A stretch of DNA of 64,000 nt. It comes from Bacteroidetes bacterium 46-16. Lineage in GTDB: Bacteria; Bacteroidota; Bacteroidia; Chitinophagales; Chitinophagaceae. The notes under the pieces were generated by a model. That model was not told where the DNA came from, did no database searches, and saw only the letters and a program-made list of their open reading frames with translations. Positions 6,034 through 39,152 of the stretch are shown piece after piece. The position numbers and the translations under genes are program-made. The stretch covers positions 1-64,000 of the forward strand of contig MKUN01000022.1 in the NCBI GenBank assembly GCA_001897835.1, written 5' to 3'. The first letter of the stretch is position 1, and the number at the start of each line of letters is the position of its first letter.

Positions 6034-7071
6034 ATGTCTGACCGTCGGAAGTTTCTGAAGTTTTCAATGCTGGGTGCTGCTGCAACATTTGTAGGGAAAA
6101 ATGCACTTGCAAGCCCCGATCACGATCATTATTACGAAACGGTCCGGGATGAACCTGTTGTTGTTTCTACATGGAATTTCGGCATGGAGGCAAACGCTGC
6201 AGCATGGGAGATATTGAAAGATGGCGGCCATGCACTCGATGCGGTAGAGGCGGGTGTAAAAGTACCTGAAGGCAACCCCGACGTGAGTACTGTCGGTCTC
6301 GGTGGCACACCCGATCGCGATGGCAGGGTCACGCTCGATTCCTGCATCATGGATGATAAGCACAGGTGCGGATCGGTAATGTGCCTGGAGCATATAGTAC
6401 ATGCAGTATCCGTAGCAAGGCTGGTGATGGAAAAGACGCCGCATATCGTACTCGTAGGCGATGGTGCGCTGCAATTCGCACTCGAGAATGGTTTTAAGAA
6501 AGAGAACCTGCTGACGCCCGCCAGTAAAAAGGCCTGGCAAAAATGGCTGCAGACCTCAAAATATGAACCAGTAAATAATATCGAGAATAAAGTGCCGCAT
6601 CACAAAAAAGCACCGATGCCGGGCAGCAAAACCAATCACGACACCATCGGTATGCTGGCCATGGATGCCAATGGCAACTTAAGCGGCGCCTGTACTACCA
6701 GCGGACTCGCTTATAAGATACATGGCCGTGTTGGCGATTCTCCCGTTATAGGTGCGGGGCTCTATGTGGATAATGAAGCAGGTGCTGCTACAGCCACCGG
6801 TGTGGGCGAAGAAGTGATACGTGCCGTAGGTGCCCACCTGATAGTAGAGCTTATGCGTATGGGCTATAGCCCCGAAAGGGCTTGTAAAAAAGCTGTAGAG
6901 CGCATTATACGGTATAATCCCGGGGAAGCGCAAAAGATACAGGTGGGTTTCCTTGCCATGAATAAATATGGCGAATATGGTGGCTATTCATTACAGCCGG
7001 GCTTTTCTTATTCTGTTCGCACCCGCGATACTAATCGCATTTTTCACGCACCAAGCATTTACAAAAAGTAA
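6034..7071 (+). CDS. N4-(beta-N-acetylglucosaminyl)-L-asparaginase (glycosylasparaginase), Tat-exported
   Basis: This is an Ntn-hydrolase that cleaves the GlcNAc-Asn bond of N-glycopeptides. The nucleophile generated by self-cleavage should be Thr204 in NHDTIGMLAMD. The upstream GLGGTPDRDGRVTLDS and downstream ACTTSGLAYK, GRVGDSPVIGAGLY and GAATATGVGEE segments match the family. The N-terminus SDRRKFLKFSMLGAAATFVG carries a twin-arginine motif, so the folded enzyme should reach the periplasm. It is 345 residues and sits 3 nt before cutC, probably as an operon. Substrates in this organism are unknown; foreign glycoproteins are a plausible source. Confidence 0.92.
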   Translation: MSDRRKFLKFSMLGAAATFVGKNALASPDHDHYYETVRDEPVVVSTWNFGMEANAAAWEILKDGGHALDAVEAGVKVPEGNPDVSTVGLGGTPDRDGRVTLDSCIMDDKHRCGSVMCLEHIVHAVSVARLVMEKTPHIVLVGDGALQFALENGFKKENLLTPASKKAWQKWLQTSKYEPVNNIENKVPHHKKAPMPGSKTNHDTIGMLAMDANGNLSGACTTSGLAYKIHGRVGDSPVIGAGLYVDNEAGAATATGVGEEVIRAVGAHLIVELMRMGYSPERACKKAVERIIRYNPGEAQKIQVGFLAMNKYGEYGGYSLQPGFSYSVRTRDTNRIFHAPSIYKK

Positions 7072-7074
7072 TAC

Positions 7075-7755
7075 ATGCCCGGTAAACACCTGCTGGAGGT
7101 CTGCGCTTACAATACCGATTCCTGCATCATTGCCCAAAAGGTTGGTGCAGGGCGCATAGAATTGTGTGCCGGGGCAGCTGTAGGTGGCACTACACCATCA
7201 GCCGATACGATCCGCGAAGTAAAGGAAAAGGTAACTATACCGGTATATGCCATGATACGCCCGCGTGGTGGCGATTTTTTATACAGCGATGCGGAGATAA
7301 GTACTATGCTTCGCGATATAGATACATGCTGGCAACTGGGCTGCGAAGGCATCGTTACAGGAGTGCAGTTACCCGATGGTAATATTGATGCTTCTTTACT
7401 CACAAGACTGGTTGAGCGTGCTTATCCTATGAAGGTGACCTGTCACAGGGTATTCGACCGCTGCCCCGACCCATTCAAGGCCCTTGAAGATATCATTTCA
7501 GCAGGTTGCGAACGAATATTGACCTCAGGGCAAAAGGACAGAGCCATCGAAGCCACCCAACTACTGGCGCAGCTTATAGAGGCCGCAGCCGGCAGGATCA
7601 TCATTATGCCCGGCAGCGGGGTACGCGCTGCCAACATTAGCCGGCTGGTAACCGAAACAGGCGCCAGAGAGTATCATACATCAGCCCTTATACAGGGTGA
7701 TGTTGCCGACGAGGAAGAGCTGCAAAAGATCATGCAGCTTTTACACAGCTCATAA
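7075..7755 (+). CDS. cutC: CutC family protein (copper homeostasis)
   Basis: This is a TIM-barrel CutC protein of 226 residues. It shows the family segments LEVCAYNTDSC, GAGRIELCAGAAVGGTTPS, VYAMIRPRGGDFLY, VTCHRVFDRCPDP and ILTSGQ. The family name comes from copper tolerance mutants in E. coli; a direct copper role has been questioned and the real reaction is uncertain. It has no signal peptide and is presumably cytoplasmic. It follows the asparaginase gene by 3 nt, with the start codon right after the stop of the first gene. Confidence 0.9.
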   Translation: MPGKHLLEVCAYNTDSCIIAQKVGAGRIELCAGAAVGGTTPSADTIREVKEKVTIPVYAMIRPRGGDFLYSDAEISTMLRDIDTCWQLGCEGIVTGVQLPDGNIDASLLTRLVERAYPMKVTCHRVFDRCPDPFKALEDIISAGCERILTSGQKDRAIEATQLLAQLIEAAAGRIIIMPGSGVRAANISRLVTETGAREYHTSALIQGDVADEEELQKIMQLLHSS

Positions 7756-7784
7756 AAAACTGTCCCGCCATTTGGGCGGGACAG
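7754..7784 (-). terminator. Rho-independent terminator of the T9SS cargo gene
   Basis: CTGTCCCGCC (7760-7769) and GGCGGGACAG (7775-7784) form a perfect 10-bp stem with a 5-nt loop. The A run at 7754-7759 gives a U-tract on the minus strand. It should end the transcript of the gene at 7818-9080. The stem may also help stop cutC transcription, but no T run follows it on the plus strand. Confidence 0.8.
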
Positions 7785-7817
7785 ATGTTTCACTTTAAAG
7801 TGTATATAGAGGCAGGC

Positions 7818-9080
7818 TTATTTTACGATCTTGAAGATCACATTGCCTTCAGCAGTGTTCACATGCAGCATATACATGCCTTTGCTTAACGAGGCAGCGG
7901 GTATGATCACCGGTTCATTTTCATTGAAATGATGTGTATATACTATCATGCCGTTCATTGCGGTCAGCACTACATTCTTTGCACCGGTTATATTGCTTAC
8001 ATTGATCCTGTCGCTTGCAGGGTTAGGGAAGGCTATAGCATCTTTCAGTGCAGCAGGCACATTGCCTACCGATGTAGCGGTGATATAATGACCTTCAAAT
8101 TCATGCTGGTGCTCCTGGAATTCTATATTGTTCAATGATTGATGTGTTGCATCAAGTGTTACCAGTAATGGAGGATTTTGTTTGCCGCCAACATCGCCAA
8201 ACAGCTTGTAATTACCATAAGGCAGGTTGCTGAAGCTGAAATGGCCGCTTACATCCGAATACGTGTATGCTATTGCCTGGTCATTGATGTCGGTCAGTAT
8301 CAGTATCTTATTCGGCAGCGGGTCACCTACTGCGGTTGACTTATTCGCACCCTGTGCTACATTACCGCCTATGAAGGCCGGGCCGCCCGGGTTAACACCT
8401 GCTATAAGCTGTATATTAACACCATTGGCCGGCAAAGGATTGGGCAGGTTTGAAGCACCAGACCATATTAACGACGATGTGTAGTATGTTGGCAGGTAAT
8501 TGCTGTAATTAGCGTTAGCAGGCAGTAAAGCCGCTTTTACCATGAACTGGGGCGCCCAGAAGTTAGGGTTGTTGAGCGTGTAATGTCCTAAAGTATCAGT
8601 ATATGTGCTGTCAATAGCTGTAAGCGTAGTATCATTGGTCATTGAATCTACAGTCATCTCTATCAGGTATACAACTGCATTATATTCACCCAGCGACGGG
8701 TTGCTAGCAGTTATCGTACCTGTTATATTAGCCGGTGGTGGTGGCGGTGTAGCGCAAATGTTGAAGTCATTTATGATATTATTGCCCATGTAGGTAACCG
8801 TATCATCTACCACTGCGTTATTGCAGTCATACAAGTATATGTGAAAGAGGGTGCCATTTCCAGGAGTATTCACAAAATTAATGGTATAATCCCCATTGGC
8901 ATCAGTATTGGCCTGGCCCCAGTATATCTGCTGGTTAGGTATGGAGTCAGTGTAAGCGTAAACGGTCTTGTTGTTAATAGGTTGCTGGTTGAGGTCTGTT
9001 ACATTGCCACTTACAGTCACCTGCGCAAAGGCAGTGCTGCAAAGGAGTGATAAAACAGCTAATAAGGAGATTTTTCGCAT
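7818..9080 (-). CDS. T9SS type A sorting domain protein with repeated regulatory-like domains
   Basis: This is a secreted protein of 420 residues with signal peptide MRKISLLAVLSLLCSTAFA. Several beta-sandwich repeats of carboxypeptidase-regulatory/CNA-B kind follow (VSGNVTDLNQQPINNKTVYAY, NITGTITASNPSLGEYNAVVY region, and GHFSFSNLPYGNYKLFG). The last 75 residues form a T9SS type A sorting domain (AFPNPASDRINVSN ... LSKGMYMLHV). It is probably secreted by the T9SS and attached to the cell surface. The mature function is unknown; the repeats suggest an adhesin or scaffold. It lies downstream of the sigma/anti-sigma pair on the same strand with an 80-nt gap, so it might be a target of that sigma factor. 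Confidence 0.85.
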   Translation of the reverse strand: MRKISLLAVLSLLCSTAFAQVTVSGNVTDLNQQPINNKTVYAYTDSIPNQQIYWGQANTDANGDYTINFVNTPGNGTLFHIYLYDCNNAVVDDTVTYMGNNIINDFNICATPPPPPANITGTITASNPSLGEYNAVVYLIEMTVDSMTNDTTLTAIDSTYTDTLGHYTLNNPNFWAPQFMVKAALLPANANYSNYLPTYYTSSLIWSGASNLPNPLPANGVNIQLIAGVNPGGPAFIGGNVAQGANKSTAVGDPLPNKILILTDINDQAIAYTYSDVSGHFSFSNLPYGNYKLFGDVGGKQNPPLLVTLDATHQSLNNIEFQEHQHEFEGHYITATSVGNVPAALKDAIAFPNPASDRINVSNITGAKNVVLTAMNGMIVYTHHFNENEPVIIPAASLSKGMYMLHVNTAEGNVIFKIVK

Positions 9081-9160
9081 AATAAAAATTGAAATTTTTT
9101 TATAATTATAGTCCTGGAAAATGGTTACGCTATATAGTGACGGGATATTATCCCGATACG

Positions 9161-11425
9161 TTAGTGCTTTCTATGTTTTTTATCGTTTTTATTACTGTTA
9201 AATAACCGGTATCCTGCACTAAGCCGTACATAAGGCTGTGTGTATATGCCCCGCACGTCCTTGTTCGGTACATAATTCATATTCGACAGGTTTTGCTGTA
9301 CCGACACGTCTATCAGGAATTTGTCGTGTATCGTATAACTGGCACCCAGCATATAGCCTGCCCTTACCTTCATCGAACTGGCATCCTGGTAATCGGCATT
9401 GCTGTATTTTATATATGCTATACCGGGATAATGGAACACACTGCTTGCCTCAGGTATATCCGGTGCCGGTGTATTGGCATTAAAACTATCGCTGTATATA
9501 TAACTACCGGTTTTAGAATTTACCTGCCTGTCTTCCTTTATTCGTATAACTGTATTACTATAGTTAATAAGCATCCCCCCATATACCGACAGGTTTTTGG
9601 CCGGCTTATATTTCAGTAGCAGGGGTAGCTCTATCTCAGCATACGATTTGGTTTCTATATGGTGCCCTATCGAAATGGAATCATGTGTTTCTGAGTAAGC
9701 GTACATACGTACCCGTAAAGAATCAGCAGTATAAATAGTATCAGATATTGTGGTGTAATACGGATCACTCGTCACGTTATAATAGGTTTCTGTACTTCCC
9801 AGGTTACTTGTATGTGCGTTCCGGGCTATTTTAATAGCAGGCTGCAGGGATATCCCGAATTTGCCAATATTGTATTGTACATAAGGCGCAATAACATACT
9901 TGTTTGCAGCGAAACGGTTGAAACCAATTTCATAGCCCAGCATGATCCCCTCTTCAACACTGGTCCGGTATATTTTCTTTTTAGGTTTATCCTGTGTTGT
10001 AAGATTATTTAAAAAATCCGTTGTTGAGAGCGGCTTTTGTTTTACTGTATTCCCACTGTTGCCAGCTTGCGCATTCAGCACTACCTTATTGTTTGCTACA
10101 GGCGGTACAGAACTGCCACTTACCTGGCTTCTTGCTGCATTTGGCAGAGGGCTATTATTGCCGGTACTAGTCGCAGCTATGTTTTGTGCTGCTGCACCTG
10201 TGGTATTATTTTTTGTTGCTGCATTTATCACCTGTTCCGGCTCTTTATTTCCTATTGCCTGCTGCCTCCTATTATCCGCTTGTTGCGCAGCCAATGCGTT
10301 CACTTCAGCACCGCCCTCTTTAGCCGCACTTATTTCATCCTGCTGTTCTCTACCCATAGCGGCTTTATTTGCATTACCTACCTCTTTGCCACTGCTAACA
10401 ACTGGCTTATTTTCCATCTTCGCTGCTGCATTGTTGCCCTTCTTATTTTTATCGGCTTGTGCTACTGCTTTATCAAGATTCTGTTTAGCATTTCCGGCAT
10501 CGCCTGCAGCTGGTTTTTCCATATTCTTGCTATCGGCAATGGAATTACCCTTCTTTTGGCTCCCAGCTATTGTCGGCGCATTATCCGCATCAGCCACTTT
10601 AGCAGTCTTAGCTGCGTATACATTTTTACCAGTGCCTTCCTCAGCCTTTTTACCTGTAGCCTTATGGCCTGTTGCAGCGACATCATTTCCTTCACTTATG
10701 TTGTCATGTGCCTCACCCGCTACATGTGCAGCATCATTTTGCGATAAATGGTTTCCCGTATTTGCACCTTTATTCGTCCATTGCTCATCGCTATGGTATT
10801 TATAATTGTCCTTCACCGCTTTTGCTGCATAGGCATGCATATTGCCGCCCTTCATACTGCTGGCCAGCGTATTATCATCCTCTTTCTTCTTTGCGCCTGT
10901 GTTTGTTGATGTATATCCTTTGTTCTGTGTACTATTTGTTGAGGTATTCTTATTGTTCAGTGATGCTTCTAAATTGTTATTTGCCTGTTCACCCGGTAGC
11001 GGTGTTGCAGCGGCTTGCCTGTTAGCGCTTTCTACACCTGCACCATCATTATGGTCGCTATTACTGCCTGCCTGCTCTATGGCTGCAGTATGGGCAGTAT
11101 TTGCACTATAGTTACCGGCTACAGCATTGCCGGCAGCTATACCTGTATTATTTCCGCTTCCGTTCATCGCCACCCGTTCCGCATTACTATGCTTCACATC
11201 ACCGGTGTCGGCAAACTTCCTGTATCCCAGGAATACGAGTACGCTCAGTACGCATAATACCACGCCGTATCGCAACCATTTATAGTACGATACCACGCTG
11301 GCGGGAGTAGCTGTGCTGTCCAGCTTTTGCTCCAGCGATTTCCAAACGAAAGGTGGCGGCGCCTCACTGTGCGCTTCCATCCGCTCGCGGAAAAAGTCAT
11401 CAATATGTTTTTTCTGTTCAGGCAT
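9161..11425 (-). CDS. Dual-membrane anti-sigma-like protein with outer-membrane beta-barrel (Dma-type)
   Basis: This 754-residue protein reads in four parts. The first is a short soluble N-terminus (1-48, HIDDFFRERMEAH ... WKSLEQKL). Next come one hydrophobic helix (about 50-68) and a tract of about 415 residues rich in A, N, K, G, T and Q without aromatic patches. Last is a C-terminal beta-barrel of about 250 residues with alternating aromatic strands (YVIAPYVQYNIGKFGISLQP, SVYGGMLINYSN, YVRLSAGYRLF). Proteins of this layout encoded next to ECF sigma factors were described in Bacteroides thetaiotaomicron as dual membrane-spanning anti-sigma factors. The ECF gene ends 4 nt before this ATG. 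An in-frame GTG at 11428 is an alternative start. The anti-sigma role is inferred from layout and context. Confidence 0.75.
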   Translation of the reverse strand: MPEQKKHIDDFFRERMEAHSEAPPPFVWKSLEQKLDSTATPASVVSYYKWLRYGVVLCVLSVLVFLGYRKFADTGDVKHSNAERVAMNGSGNNTGIAAGNAVAGNYSANTAHTAAIEQAGSNSDHNDGAGVESANRQAAATPLPGEQANNNLEASLNNKNTSTNSTQNKGYTSTNTGAKKKEDDNTLASSMKGGNMHAYAAKAVKDNYKYHSDEQWTNKGANTGNHLSQNDAAHVAGEAHDNISEGNDVAATGHKATGKKAEEGTGKNVYAAKTAKVADADNAPTIAGSQKKGNSIADSKNMEKPAAGDAGNAKQNLDKAVAQADKNKKGNNAAAKMENKPVVSSGKEVGNANKAAMGREQQDEISAAKEGGAEVNALAAQQADNRRQQAIGNKEPEQVINAATKNNTTGAAAQNIAATSTGNNSPLPNAARSQVSGSSVPPVANNKVVLNAQAGNSGNTVKQKPLSTTDFLNNLTTQDKPKKKIYRTSVEEGIMLGYEIGFNRFAANKYVIAPYVQYNIGKFGISLQPAIKIARNAHTSNLGSTETYYNVTSDPYYTTISDTIYTADSLRVRMYAYSETHDSISIGHHIETKSYAEIELPLLLKYKPAKNLSVYGGMLINYSNTVIRIKEDRQVNSKTGSYIYSDSFNANTPAPDIPEASSVFHYPGIAYIKYSNADYQDASSMKVRAGYMLGASYTIHDKFLIDVSVQQNLSNMNYVPNKDVRGIYTQPYVRLSAGYRLFNSNKNDKKHRKH

Positions 11426-11429
11426 CACT

Positions 11430-12020
11430 TTACTTCATTAAAGAGTTTATTTTTTCCTTCAGGCTTTTCCTGGCCATATTCAGGTACCACCTGCTGTTGT
11501 TTTCAGTTATGTTTAATAATGTTCCAATGTCCTTATGCGGCAGGCTTTCAAATACGTGCAGGTTGAAAACCGCCTTTTGCATCTCCGGCAAGCCGTGTAT
11601 CAGGTCCAATAGCTCCTTATAGGCCATTCCCTGCACTGCACTGCTGTCTATATATGCATTATAATCCTGCAATTCATTATGCACCACCTGCTTATCCTTC
11701 ACATACTTCCTGATATGGTCCGTGATCGTGTTAATGGCGATACGCCTCATCCAGCCCTCTATCGCACCCTCAAATGAATATTGCTCCAGCTTGGTGAATA
11801 CCTTCAAAAAAACGTCGTTCAATATCTCTCCCGCTGCCTGCTCGTTATATTCATAACGCTTTATTATAGTATATATGAGCGGCGAATAACGATCGTAGAA
11901 CCTTCTCTGCGCCAGGCGGTTCTGGGCAATACAGTCCCTCACAAGGGTGGTTAGGTCTGCCACCTCCCCCGTTTCCCGGTAAGTATTCCCTGAAATGTTA
12001 TACTGCTCCGCCAAGTGCAC
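11430..12020 (-). CDS. ECF-type RNA polymerase sigma factor
   Basis: This is a sigma-70 family factor of the extracytoplasmic-function class (196 residues). Region 2 is visible as RRFYDRYSPLIYTIIKRYEYNEQAAGEILNDVF (residues about 39-71) with the following GWMRRIAINTITDHIRK. Region 4 is GLPEMQKAVFNLHVFESLPHKDIGTLLNITENNSRWYLNMARKSLKE in outline. The first 25 residues are poorly conserved, so the true start could be internal. It is followed after 4 nt by the Dma-type membrane protein, the expected arrangement for a sigma factor held by its cognate anti-sigma. The activating signal and the regulon are unknown. Confidence 0.92.
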   Translation of the reverse strand: MHLAEQYNISGNTYRETGEVADLTTLVRDCIAQNRLAQRRFYDRYSPLIYTIIKRYEYNEQAAGEILNDVFLKVFTKLEQYSFEGAIEGWMRRIAINTITDHIRKYVKDKQVVHNELQDYNAYIDSSAVQGMAYKELLDLIHGLPEMQKAVFNLHVFESLPHKDIGTLLNITENNSRWYLNMARKSLKEKINSLMK

Positions 12021-12159
12021 TTGTAGATTTTTTATGCCATATAGTATGGTTCGGTCCTTATACAGTAAGACGAAACATACACGCTCAGTGTTAGATTATA
12101 CTATAAATATATTAATATACAATGTAAAGGTACCACAAAACAATACTCATTCCTCATAC

Positions 12160-12167
12160 TATATTTG
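12160..12167 (+). promoter_or_regulatory. Possible -7 promoter element for the membrane protein gene at 12211
   Basis: TATATTTG fits TAnnTTTG and lies 43 nt before the ATG at 12211. No clear TTTG is present 19-22 nt upstream, so support comes from only one box. Confidence 0.35.
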
Positions 12168-12210
12168 CAATAATGCCTTCATACTTTAATACTGAAACAG
12201 TGCTTTGCAT

Positions 12211-13875
12211 ATGACTCGCAACCTTAAGCTGAACAACCTGGGTATTTTTATCCTGCTTTGGGTCCTCCTTTTTACCCTTTACCTTCCCGCTGCCCGCGCA
12301 GGTTTTGTTACTGATTTTACCGGCTGGCTCTACGAAATAAAAAACGATGATTTTTTAACATATGTCAACCGTTCTAATTTTCATGTAAAAAGCCTGTACC
12401 AATTCACCCAGTGTACAACTTATTTCTTTTACTTGATCTTTAAAGCTAATCCATGGTTGTGGCATTTGTTATTCATTACTTTGCAGGCATTAAACGGTTT
12501 TTTGCTTTGGCTGTTTTGCTCACGCCTGTTTCTTTCCTCAGGAGTAAATAATGAATCGGGTATTGCTTTAGCCGGGGTAGCACTGTTTTGCATATGCCCG
12601 GCTATTTCAGAAGTAGTAGTATGGGAGCCCTCATATCACTATCTGCAAGGTCTGCTAATGATGCTCGCTATTCTTATTTGCCTGCAAAACTACCTGCATG
12701 TGCAGAAACGATCTTATATCATTATTGCTCTATTTATATATACACTATCGCTCTTCTCACTCGAATACTTTTACCTTACTCCCTTACTTTCCCTGGCATT
12801 AATTGGCTTTTACAAATATGCATTACAGTACCAGCGCATCGTATATAAAAAAGCAATGCTTTATTTTACCCTGCCGTTATTTTTGCTGTTTACCGCCCGG
12901 CTGGTACTCTTCAAACTTTTATACCATGACTGGGTATCGCGTATCGGCTCAGCAACATTGTTCCAGTCTTTACATGATTACATTATAAAGCCACCGAAAT
13001 ACATTTTTCACCTTGTATTTCTTGGGCGGTTTTTTTCTCATGAGTATCGTCAAAAAGTATATGCATTTTGCGAATCAACACTAGGCTTAGGCATTTTCTA
13101 TACACTATTTGCAGTACTTATAGGTTACATACTGCTACGTTTCCGGAAATTCAACAATAAAGCTAAGCTCCTCAGCCTGGTGTTTTTATTCGTTATCCTC
13201 GCAACAGCTCTTGTCTTACCCATGTGGTTCCCCGATCTGCAACTCGTTGCTTTCGACCGGTATATGTACATGCTCAGTGCTTTCCTGTTTATGCTTATTG
13301 CCCTGTTAATAAGCTATATACCGCGCATGTCGCTTGCACTTGTGGTGTTTGCCTTTATTGCGCTTATCAACCTGCGTTATACCATCCGGGTCAACAGGTA
13401 CTGGATGAAAGCCCAGCGTATCGACGAAAAACTGCTCGACACCTTCCCCGGTAGCAACGACAAGATAACCATACTGCTCGACCAGCCCGAAAATATGCAC
13501 GGCATACCTATGATACAGGCTACACATGGCAATGAATTTAAACTGATGTATAACCTGCTTAAGCCCGATAGCATACAGGGACTCGTATTCGATGGCTTGT
13601 CATTCAACATGGAAACTCCGGAAGACGGGGCACATGTGACTGTATTGAATGATAGTATGGCGCGAATTACACTCAACCAATGGGGCACATGGTGGTGGTT
13701 CGATGGCTTTGGGGCTACCGATCGCGAGAATGAGTATTATAAGATACACGTACCCGATGCTCACTTTTATGACATCACTTTAAGAAAACCACCTGCTCAA
13801 TACCGGTTACTATATCAAACTGCCGGTAACTGGAAAGAGGTGGACTGGAACAGGAAAAACGAGGACCAGTACTAA
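12211..13875 (+). CDS. Multi-pass membrane protein of unknown function, glycosyltransferase-like
   Basis: This protein of 554 residues has about ten hydrophobic helices in the first 400 residues and a soluble C-terminal part of about 160 residues (from VNRYWMKAQRIDEKLLDTFPG). The helix pattern and early acidic loop (TDFTGWLYEIKNDDF) recall GT-C type dolichyl-phosphate-sugar mannosyltransferases and related polymer-export proteins. No diagnostic motif was recognised, so no function is assigned. TTG at 12205 is an in-frame alternative, but ATG at 12211 is preferred. Its stop overlaps the stop of the convergent reductase gene by 4 nt. It diverges from the ECF sigma gene and could share that control region. 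Confidence 0.6.
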   Translation: MTRNLKLNNLGIFILLWVLLFTLYLPAARAGFVTDFTGWLYEIKNDDFLTYVNRSNFHVKSLYQFTQCTTYFFYLIFKANPWLWHLLFITLQALNGFLLWLFCSRLFLSSGVNNESGIALAGVALFCICPAISEVVVWEPSYHYLQGLLMMLAILICLQNYLHVQKRSYIIIALFIYTLSLFSLEYFYLTPLLSLALIGFYKYALQYQRIVYKKAMLYFTLPLFLLFTARLVLFKLLYHDWVSRIGSATLFQSLHDYIIKPPKYIFHLVFLGRFFSHEYRQKVYAFCESTLGLGIFYTLFAVLIGYILLRFRKFNNKAKLLSLVFLFVILATALVLPMWFPDLQLVAFDRYMYMLSAFLFMLIALLISYIPRMSLALVVFAFIALINLRYTIRVNRYWMKAQRIDEKLLDTFPGSNDKITILLDQPENMHGIPMIQATHGNEFKLMYNLLKPDSIQGLVFDGLSFNMETPEDGAHVTVLNDSMARITLNQWGTWWWFDGFGATDRENEYYKIHVPDAHFYDITLRKPPAQYRLLYQTAGNWKEVDWNRKNEDQY

Positions 13876-14927
13876 AGCTCAAGCGCTGCATCACCACCCA
13901 CCGGGTACCCCACGCAGGTAAGCACCAGGCCTTTTTCTATGTCCTTGTCTGTCAGCACCTCGTTTGCCGACATCCATATGCTGCCATTTATACAGCGCGC
14001 GGCACAGCTGCCGCATTGCCCCAGTTCGCAACTGTATGGTATCTGTATCCCCATTTTTTTCGCAGCCTGTAAGATCGTTTCGGGATACTGGCAGTTAAGT
14101 TCATATTCATCCTCCCCTATGCTGATACGAACATGGTGAGGCTCTTTGTCTGGCGGCATTGCCTTTCTTACAGGTATATGCACATCAAAATTCTCCTTCT
14201 TTATTTGCCCGGCTTTTATGCCATATTCTTCCAGCGCCAATATCACCATGCGCATATAATCAAAGGGTCCGCAGGTATAGAACAGCATTTTGTCCTTCTC
14301 CGTAAGCGCATACTCATCTACCAGTTGGGGCAGCAATGCTTTATTCAGCCTGGCCCGCGCAAGTGTGAATGCGCTGCTGTATAAGAACTCAATACGCAAC
14401 CTGCCGGGATATGCCACCTGTAGTTCCACCAGTTTTTCATAAAATACCACATCCTCTTTTTTCTTGTTGCTGTAAAGGAGCACAATGTTTTTACTGCTAT
14501 GCTGCAACAACGATTTTATAATCGCGAATACGGGCACGATACCAATGCCCGCTGCCATAAAGAACACTTGCTCATATGCTGCCAGGTCACCGGGCAATAC
14601 GAACAAACCCGCAGCCCCGGTTGTATAAAGTACATCCCCGGCCTTTGCATCGTCCACCAGGTAGCGGGTAAAGACGCCATTATCTATTCTTTTTACGGTG
14701 ACCGCCAAAGGCTCACCCCGTTCCGGATTGCTGGAGATAGAGAAAGATCTCCGCTCTTCTTTATGATGGTTTTGAAATGCAAATGTGAGGAACTGTCCCG
14801 CTTTATATACTATGCCCCCCTTATCCTGCGGTTCCAGTATAAATGTTTTTACACCGCGCACTTCCTCTATGACCGAAGTGATCGTTACTGCTTTGTATAT
14901 ATTATTGGCGGGTGCTGCAAGTGGCAT
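13872..14927 (-). CDS. Ferredoxin-NADP reductase-like protein with C-terminal 2Fe-2S domain (PaaE/HmpX type)
   Basis: A flavin reductase domain comes first: FAD-binding RSFSISSNP at 60-68 and the NAD(P) domain with AAGIGIVPVFAIIK at 125-138 and FYTCGPFDYM at 216-225. A plant-type 2Fe-2S ferredoxin domain follows, with Cys300, Cys305, Cys308 and Cys338 (CELGQCGSC ... TC). Such proteins pass electrons from NAD(P)H to an oxygenase, as in PaaE of phenylacetyl-CoA epoxidase or ketosteroid hydroxylases. No oxygenase partner is near, so the acceptor is unknown. It is cytoplasmic and lies 35 nt downstream of the ParA gene on the same strand. Confidence 0.88.
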   Translation of the reverse strand: MPLAAPANNIYKAVTITSVIEEVRGVKTFILEPQDKGGIVYKAGQFLTFAFQNHHKEERRSFSISSNPERGEPLAVTVKRIDNGVFTRYLVDDAKAGDVLYTTGAAGLFVLPGDLAAYEQVFFMAAGIGIVPVFAIIKSLLQHSSKNIVLLYSNKKKEDVVFYEKLVELQVAYPGRLRIEFLYSSAFTLARARLNKALLPQLVDEYALTEKDKMLFYTCGPFDYMRMVILALEEYGIKAGQIKKENFDVHIPVRKAMPPDKEPHHVRISIGEDEYELNCQYPETILQAAKKMGIQIPYSCELGQCGSCAARCINGSIWMSANEVLTDKDIEKGLVLTCVGYPVGGDAALEL

Positions 14928-38170: not shown

Positions 38171-39049
38171 TTATTCTACTACGAATTTGCCCGCCAGCGT
38201 ACCGAAATGATAGAAGTAAATACCGGCCGCATATTCACTGCTGCTGATGGCGATATCAGTATTACCCTGTACGGGATATTGATGCAGCAATACACCCCTG
38301 CAATCATATACCTGTACGTTGCCATCGGCTGCGGGATCGCTTATGTGGATGGTACCTGTACCGGTAAGCGGATTAGGATAAAGTGTAATCGTCGCTTTGT
38401 TTTCGCTCAACTCTTTTACAGCGAGCGTACTTTCAAGGCAATCGACCGTGTTGTAAGCGGGATTGTGGTACAACCATTCGCCATCCTGCCTGAAGCAGAT
38501 GATGTTTTCGGCACAGTCGCAGGTGGGTTGCAACATGCCAGGACCCAGTAGTCCTCCTACCGATGAATTGCCCATGCCTTCTATCCATGCACCATAAATC
38601 CAGAAGTTGCCATCGTATGACTGGAAGTTGATACGCCTATGAAAAACGCCGGACAGATCTACAGAATCGATAGAACTGACTATGCCGGCAGATCCGGGAT
38701 CATAATCAACTGTATCGCCGGGCTGTACCATAAAGTCGTAGAGCATACGCTCGTGGCCTGCTGCAAAGTCGTAGAAATAGACACGCCTCATGCTATCTTC
38801 ACGCAAGCCCCCCACACATTCTGAAGGCTGAAAGATCGTATCTGCAGATTTGAAGAGCCTGTGATAGTTGAGCAGATTTATCGTAGTGTCCTCGCTGGTG
38901 AGGCCATAGCAAAAGTAGGAGGGTGTAGTATCTCCATTGCCATGGCGTTGTGTCCATATAGTGTTAGATGTCGGGAATGGGATATAGCTCTGTGCCTGTG
39001 CAGAGATCGCTGCCACGAATAATATCAAAAGTATAAAAAGCCTTTTCAT
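38171..39049 (-). CDS. T9SS type A sorting domain protein
   Basis: This 292-residue protein has signal peptide MKRLFILLILFVAAISAQAQ, a body of unknown fold (about 21-210) with several cysteines (QPTCDCAENIICF), and a C-terminal sorting domain (ITLYPNPLTGTGTIHIS ... EYAAGIYFYHFGT). The body resembles many short Chitinophagaceae secreted proteins whose role is unknown. Directly downstream on the same strand is the larger type B protein with a 75-nt gap, so the two may be co-expressed. Confidence 0.87.
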   Translation of the reverse strand: MKRLFILLILFVAAISAQAQSYIPFPTSNTIWTQRHGNGDTTPSYFCYGLTSEDTTINLLNYHRLFKSADTIFQPSECVGGLREDSMRRVYFYDFAAGHERMLYDFMVQPGDTVDYDPGSAGIVSSIDSVDLSGVFHRRINFQSYDGNFWIYGAWIEGMGNSSVGGLLGPGMLQPTCDCAENIICFRQDGEWLYHNPAYNTVDCLESTLAVKELSENKATITLYPNPLTGTGTIHISDPAADGNVQVYDCRGVLLHQYPVQGNTDIAISSSEYAAGIYFYHFGTLAGKFVVE

Positions 39050-39152
39050 ATGCAGGTAAGTTTAAATAATAGTTCGTAATGGTTATCAACAGTATTGACG
39101 TAAACTAAGGTCAAAACGTTAGAACACATTATTTGCCAGCGGCAAAAAGCCT

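Follow-up and report, generated by a model that had tools for sequence, protein, structure and literature searches.

The first 64,000 nucleotides (nt) of contig MKUN01000022.1 from Bacteroidetes bacterium 46-16 (GCA_001897835.1, family Chitinophagaceae), hereafter the window, encode an extracytoplasmic function (ECF) sigma factor and, directly behind it, a partner of 754 amino acids (aa), the two probably constituting an autoregulated Dma-type sigma/anti-sigma switch for a regulon of type IX secretion system (T9SS) cargo genes. Gene order, the architecture of the partner, its conservation, the promoter pattern and the cargo genes behind that pattern are observed, and from them we infer the binding, inhibition and release of the sigma factor, the topology of the partner across the envelope, and that the sigma factor of the window, rather than another one, reads the pattern. 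The N-terminal helical domain of the partner would hold the sigma factor at the inner membrane, and the link from there to the outer membrane would consist of a single membrane helix, ~405 residues of flexible tether and an OmpA-like barrel. A change in the barrel, or in its pull on the tether, would free the sigma factor, which would then transcribe CTAAC-N17-CGTC promoters, namely those of its own operon, of the cargo gene at 7818–9080 and of eleven other predicted T9SS cargo genes.

Gene pair and plan of the partner

The sigma gene (11430–12020, minus strand, 196 aa, GTG start) was recognized by its Pfam matches (Sigma70_r2, 43.1 bits with a cut-off of 24; Sigma70_r4_2, 40.5 bits with a cut-off of 25.7) and by similarity to a Das2-like sigma factor. 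The partner gene (9161–11425, minus strand), orthologues of which were found, starts with an ATG at 11425 and stops at 9161–9163. The distance of 4 nt between the two genes, reported in an earlier sequence-only reading of the window, is confirmed by the coordinates, and shrinks to 1 nt if the partner starts at the GTG at 11428.

The partner was modelled at full length by AlphaFold with 39 sequences, and the model, together with structural superposition (VIA-align), bears out the plan proposed in that reading: a short cytoplasmic part, one membrane helix, a long linker and a barrel. The N-terminal domain, predicted to be cytoplasmic (residues 8–36; 11318–11404, minus strand as for all parts of the partner), consists of two short helices at residues 8–16 and 25–36, follows the pattern IDDxFRE..E.PP..W..LE.KL and has D9, E21, P24, W28 and L35 invariant in an alignment of 11 members. 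The putative inner-membrane helix (residues 45–73, i.e., 29 residues; 11207–11293) contains the hydrophobic segment of the partner, with a hydropathy peak of 1.88. It is followed by a predicted periplasmic tether (residues 75–480, ~405 residues; 9986–11203) that is disordered and not conserved in sequence: model confidence (predicted local distance difference test, pLDDT) is below 50 across nearly all of residues 75–454, and secondary structure is absent through residue 487. Hydrophobic residues make up 14% of this linker as compared to 21% in the lowest 400-residue stretch among the other reading frames of at least 150 aa in the window, in agreement with the earlier description of a ~415-residue linker poor in hydrophobic clusters. 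The predicted outer-membrane β-barrel (residues 488–742; 9200–9964) was modelled with 13 strand segments (block means 72–97) and superposes on the barrels of OprF (Z 17.0, 2.4 Å, 132 residues) and OmpA (Z 16.7), the next best matches being NspA, PagL and OmpW, which are eight-stranded barrels. A C-terminal barrel of eight strands had been expected from the sequence; the barrel is indeed predicted, but the figure of eight derives from the structural matches and not from the strand count in the model.

Pfam and NCBIfam models give the partner no name, OMP_b-brl_2 reaching only E 0.5 on it; at E ≤ 0.1 the same model matches 6 of 11 members of a set of relatives (A1), the best at 1e-4. A FecR-type anti-sigma identity was considered for the partner and ruled out by the missing FecR domain, for which Pfam gave no match up to E 1 in the partner and none up to E 0.1 in the 11 members of A1.

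Of 294 family genomes, 61 were matched at E 1e-3 by a barrel profile built from 11 relatives. The 43 matches below E 1e-30 yielded 40 distinct loci, the window included, after two cut by contig ends (L086, L091) and one split over two frames (L109) had been dropped; the loci are not free of kinship (five come from one genus), so that the counts that follow are not independent trials. N-domain and barrel occur together in 39 of the 40 loci, the remaining one (L101) being cut by a contig end, and a sigma gene lies directly upstream of the partner gene, at −8 to +20 nt, in all 39 loci with upstream sequence. Both end domains are conserved among the relatives, and the tether varies in sequence as well as in length, ranging from 166 to 721 residues where intact; the linker of the window, singled out earlier as long, is indeed long but not exceptional. 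Two relatives carry the N-domain in tandem before the membrane helix, with three copies in L040 (7604–9670) and two in L041 (7372–9387), an arrangement by which a single protein might bind several sigma molecules at once. A short one-membrane form is found in L050 (5940–7216), where the N-domain sits on a barrel-less protein of 196 aa adjoining a sigma gene. On account of the tandem copies and the barrel-less form, the N-domain can be regarded as a module, in keeping with a sigma-binding role.

The link to the Dma family was drawn through gene order and profile comparison. PMC13088901 describes a dma2 operon running from BT_1559 to BT_1555, with a DUF4943 gene in third place. A DUF4943 search over 198 genomes returned two in which a sigma gene is followed by genes for a membrane protein of 351–356 aa, the DUF4943 protein, a further protein and a nitronate monooxygenase-like protein (this last likeness judged by eye), an order equal to the one described. 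DUF4943 was present in four further genomes (one below the cut-off), and the das2-dma2 order was absent in the three of them that were inspected (L037–L039). An alignment of 11 N-domains matched the two Dma2-like N-termini in a profile comparison (hhalign, probability 91.5, E 8e-7, 43 columns), these reference proteins being called Dma2-like from their gene order and not from a named Dma sequence, and the sigma factor of the window is 30% identical over 170 aa to the Das2-like sigma factor of one of them (L035). Because of the profile match of the N-termini, the Dma2-like gene order and this identity, the partner was filed as Dma-type. Together with the gene pair conserved in 39 of 39 loci, the profile match upholds the earlier proposal of an anti-sigma candidate on the Dma plan, and the partner is supported as a Dma-type one-piece trans-envelope anti-sigma candidate, predicted to bind its sigma factor. 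Membership of the sigma factor in ECF21 was considered and dropped.

The pair shares with the Dma2 system a sigma gene followed by the anti-sigma gene, an N-domain with FRxR ... W, one membrane helix, a disordered tether and a C-terminal barrel. Dma2-like proteins, however, measure 351–356 aa in all, with the tether of the window about three to four times longer as estimated from the sequences, and the Dma system is accompanied by DUF4943, NigD or polysaccharide utilization locus genes, whereas the third gene of the window locus and its predicted regulon are T9SS cargo. The sequence-only reading had regarded this copy as lying in a distant lineage, which needs qualifying: Dma proteins are reported from no phylum other than the one that includes the Chitinophagaceae (PMC13088901), so that finding a Dma-type pair here was to be expected.

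Promoter pattern and predicted cargo regulon

The pattern TAAC-N17-CGTC lies upstream of the sigma gene in 34 of the 39 loci. All other spacings from 8 to 29 together gave one match (N25) in the 39 loci, and dinucleotide-resampled upstream sequences carried the pattern in 0.07 loci on average and in one at most over 200 rounds. The 34 sites agree beyond the core: TAAC is preceded by C in 33 and followed by A or G in all 34, T is dominant at the next three positions (25, 27, and 23 sites, respectively), and the base after CGTC is A or T in 32. ECF promoters are laid out with an AAC-type −35 and a CGTC-type −10 element, and ECF operons are commonly autoregulated. We propose that TAAC-N17-CGTC represents the ECF-like promoter of the sigma operon, which in the window would correspond to CTAAC-N17-CGTC at 12069–12094 (minus strand) and is predicted to be autoregulated. 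Neither of the two Das2-like genes is preceded by AAC-N16..18-CGTC, and the pattern is also absent within 300 nt before L117 and eleven other divergent or Dma2-like pairs; a twelfth such pair (L243) has CTAAC-N17-CGTC. L117 (5177–7565 on contig 8 of the source genome) is a second sigma/Dma-like pair, its N-domain matching at E 1e-6 and its barrel at 6e-12.

CTAAC-N17-CGTC occurs at 22 sites of the source genome, as compared to 19 for the eight spacings 13–16 and 18–21 together. Directly behind the 22 sites, at a distance of up to 260 nt, stand 12 T9SS cargo genes and the sigma gene, in contrast to no cargo gene behind the 19 control-spacing sites, which were scored with a custom tail model only (Fisher p = 9e-5). 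The genome carries no fewer than 150 T9SS tails, perhaps 4–8% of its genes, the gene number being assumed; if 6% is taken as background, finding at least 12 cargo genes behind 22 sites has a binomial probability of 8e-10. The tail model was built from 15 neighbours or near-neighbours of the same loci and could therefore favour them. As a check, the curated TIGR04183 was run at E ≤ 1e-3 and matched every gene so assigned among the 21 neighbours downstream, the 17 upstream and the 23 targets in other genomes, and all 12 predicted cargo targets of the source genome, among which are proteins with SprB repeats, fn3, CarboxypepD_reg or Omp28 domains, pass the TIGR04183 cut-off of 23 bits.

Two of these targets lie in the window. 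The third gene of the locus (7818–9080, minus strand, 420 aa) encodes a T9SS type A cargo protein with CarboxypepD_reg domains, as indicated by TIGR04183 (38.2 bits), PF13620 and homologues, and has a second copy of the predicted promoter before it (9139–9164, minus strand). A more distant predicted member of the regulon (38171–39049, minus strand, 292 aa), also T9SS type A cargo (TIGR04183, 33.6 bits), is preceded by a copy at 39097–39122 (minus strand) ending 47 nt upstream of the start. The statement that the regulon was unknown can now be replaced by a proposed promoter and T9SS cargo regulon.

Similar associations were found in other genomes. With the Dma loci left out, T9SS cargo lies behind 16 of 29 sites in three of them, i.e., 6 of 10 in G001, 9 of 14 in G002 and 1 of 5 in G004 (12, 23, and 7 sites in all, respectively), a fourth (G003, 22 sites) being outside this count; 15 is the fairer figure, since the L198 site falls within a reading frame that probably belongs to a PorU-like gene. 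In two other genera cargo was behind 7 of 18 sites (G308, 3 of 10; G009, 4 of 8).

T9SS cargo is also frequent next to the pair itself, counting frames of at least 100 aa. A gene with a T9SS tail lies directly downstream on the same strand in 21 of the 40 loci; 16 of these genes (16 of 40 loci, the window included) form one family with 7818–9080, showing similarity outside the tail, and nine of the 21 have a promoter copy of their own, eight at spacing 17 and one at 16. The neighbour on the sigma side has a T9SS tail in 17 of 37 loci; in eight of these it is a divergent T9SS gene for ~290 aa, all eight belonging to a single family and having a motif copy of their own. With both sides taken together, 32 of 40 loci have cargo as an immediate neighbour. 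In the window, the gene divergent from the sigma gene (12205–13875) encodes a 556-aa protein with many hydrophobic stretches and no Pfam match, and two close relatives (L026, L027) have a similar 554-aa gene in the equivalent place. No Rfam match was obtained for positions 7000–14000, and the AlphaFold model of the third protein, built from one sequence (mean pLDDT 39.7), was not used.

Alternative explanations

Another ECF sigma factor, or more than one, could read the CTAAC-N17-CGTC promoters and control both the T9SS cargo genes and the sigma operon, the pair then being a target and not the master; we consider this unlikely. Among the 19 genes with a sigma-70 region 2 in the source genome, only the sigma gene of the window follows the pattern (within 700 nt), the pattern precedes most of its orthologues, and the number of sites tracks the presence of strong orthologues. 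In the 18 genomes having a strong orthologue, CTAACR-N16-CGTCW was counted 118 times vs. 21 at spacing 18; the counts were 33 vs. 8 in 11 genomes with a weak one and 273 vs. 90 in 118 genomes where none was detected. The orthologue-linked difference over these 147 genomes of the family is large, though not absolute (Mann-Whitney p = 1e-7, kinship uncorrected). The alternative is favoured by the mild excess in genomes without a detected orthologue, which persists when G309 is excluded (184 vs. 85 in 117 genomes), and by G309 itself, where 89 sites were counted in 2.3 Mb, as compared to 5 at spacing 18, and where neither a barrel match nor, at E 1e-8, a sigma match was found. In the five inspected stretches of this genome (L237–L241) sites at spacing 17 or 18 precede genes other than T9SS cargo. 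G309 has apparently a large ECF-like regulon in a small genome. In three genomes, G001, G004 and G308 (loci L174, L200 and L247), the pattern ends 189–256 nt upstream of another, conserved ECF sigma gene (192–194 aa), so that a second sigma factor may belong to the regulon in some of the relatives; an identification of these genes as SigP orthologues was considered and dropped. ECF-type promoters with a conserved CGT box are also described before T9SS machinery genes of Flavobacterium psychrophilum (PMC9723704).

Other observations weigh against an autoregulated Dma-type switch for T9SS cargo. Sequence comparison did not link the barrel to the Dma2-like barrel (hhalign probability 13.6 over 24 columns), and the membrane helix of the partner in the window has three lysine or arginine residues after it and one before, contrary to the positive-inside rule; across the 40 loci 29 obey the rule, 6 are even and 5 violate it. 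Five of the 39 sigma genes lack TAAC-N17-CGTC, and G004 is low in cargo behind its sites. The reversed pattern is no rarer than the forward one in the source genome, with 25 occurrences at N17 and 242 vs. 41 over the nine spacings, and for this reason the argument is carried by the spacing comparison and by the genes behind the sites. Nine of the 22 sites have neither T9SS nor sigma gene behind them: three fall within reading frames, one is followed by a frame of 91 aa, and the remaining five lack a frame of at least 90 aa within 260 nt.

A further alternative concerns the tether. In RseA-type cascades the anti-sigma factor is cut in the periplasm, and ~400 disordered residues might offer an easy substrate; that the partner is normally cut in this way, barrel and anti-sigma part acting separately, is in our opinion improbable. 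None of the 39 intact loci has a tether shorter than 166 residues, even though the tether can vary freely in sequence, which fits the need to span the periplasm. As a polymer, a chain of 418 residues is estimated to reach 20–30 nm at ~2 pN: the length of the tether fits a free chain across the periplasm and alone favours neither tension nor cleavage, and sensing of tension through it is physically possible, though not indicated. Dma1 has been described with domains reaching from the outer membrane into the cytosol (PMC13088901), which likewise speaks against routine cleavage. Least probable of these alternatives is that vesiculation, as in Bacteroides thetaiotaomicron, is the main output and the T9SS genes a side branch: Dma1 and Dma2 mutants do hypervesiculate, as stated in the same paper, but the 12 nameable targets in the source genome are all T9SS cargo (no search for NigD-like genes was made), and the proposed switch does not need the analogy with vesiculation drawn in the earlier reading.

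Known systems and implications

FecI-FecR-FecA also relays events at the outer membrane to an ECF sigma factor, as proposed for the window pair, through a separate TonB-dependent transducer and a FecR domain. Among the searches made, no transducer was found in the inspected neighbours of the pair. In Porphyromonas gingivalis the ECF sigma factor SigP is tied to T9SS, and PorA, exported by T9SS, feeds a surface signal back to it (PMC7712824 and PMC4800418). The PorXY-SigP system thus shares with the window an ECF sigma factor linked to T9SS; SigP, however, is activated by a two-component system, controls machinery genes and has a different proposed motif, whereas the window combines a one-piece trans-envelope candidate regulator with cargo genes as targets. 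The SM6 promoters of F. psychrophilum resemble the pattern in the CGT-type −10 box, the T9SS link and the presence of a sigma/anti-sigma pair among their targets, but these targets include parts of the T9SS machinery (PMC9723704). Within the accessible open-licence literature, Dma proteins were tied to vesicles, glycan use and NigD, and sigma control of T9SS to two-component systems or machinery genes; apart from a paper on TamL, the pairing of a dual membrane-spanning anti-sigma factor with type IX secretion was not seen there. The architecture of the regulator is of a known kind, and what is new is its proposed wiring to T9SS cargo, with a predicted promoter, regulon and cognate cargo.

Since a cognate cargo gene lies in the operon, secretion or surface display of cargo is the first candidate for the signal. 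A bolder version, which we regard as doubtful and rather a long shot, is that the barrel senses type IX export, with secreted cargo of the regulon, first of all the product of 7818–9080, docking on its outer loops and setting the release of the sigma factor. If so, one polypeptide would report secretion success at the cell surface directly to RNA polymerase and adjust the supply of cargo, a surface counterpart of the flagellar secretion checkpoint.

How the cell body learns of events at the outer membrane is an open question, and little is known of how the genes for T9SS cargo, a large class of surface proteins in Bacteroidota, are switched on. If the proposed switch is correct, a one-piece trans-envelope regulator would be wired to the T9SS cargo programme, with its promoter, its regulon and one cognate cargo.

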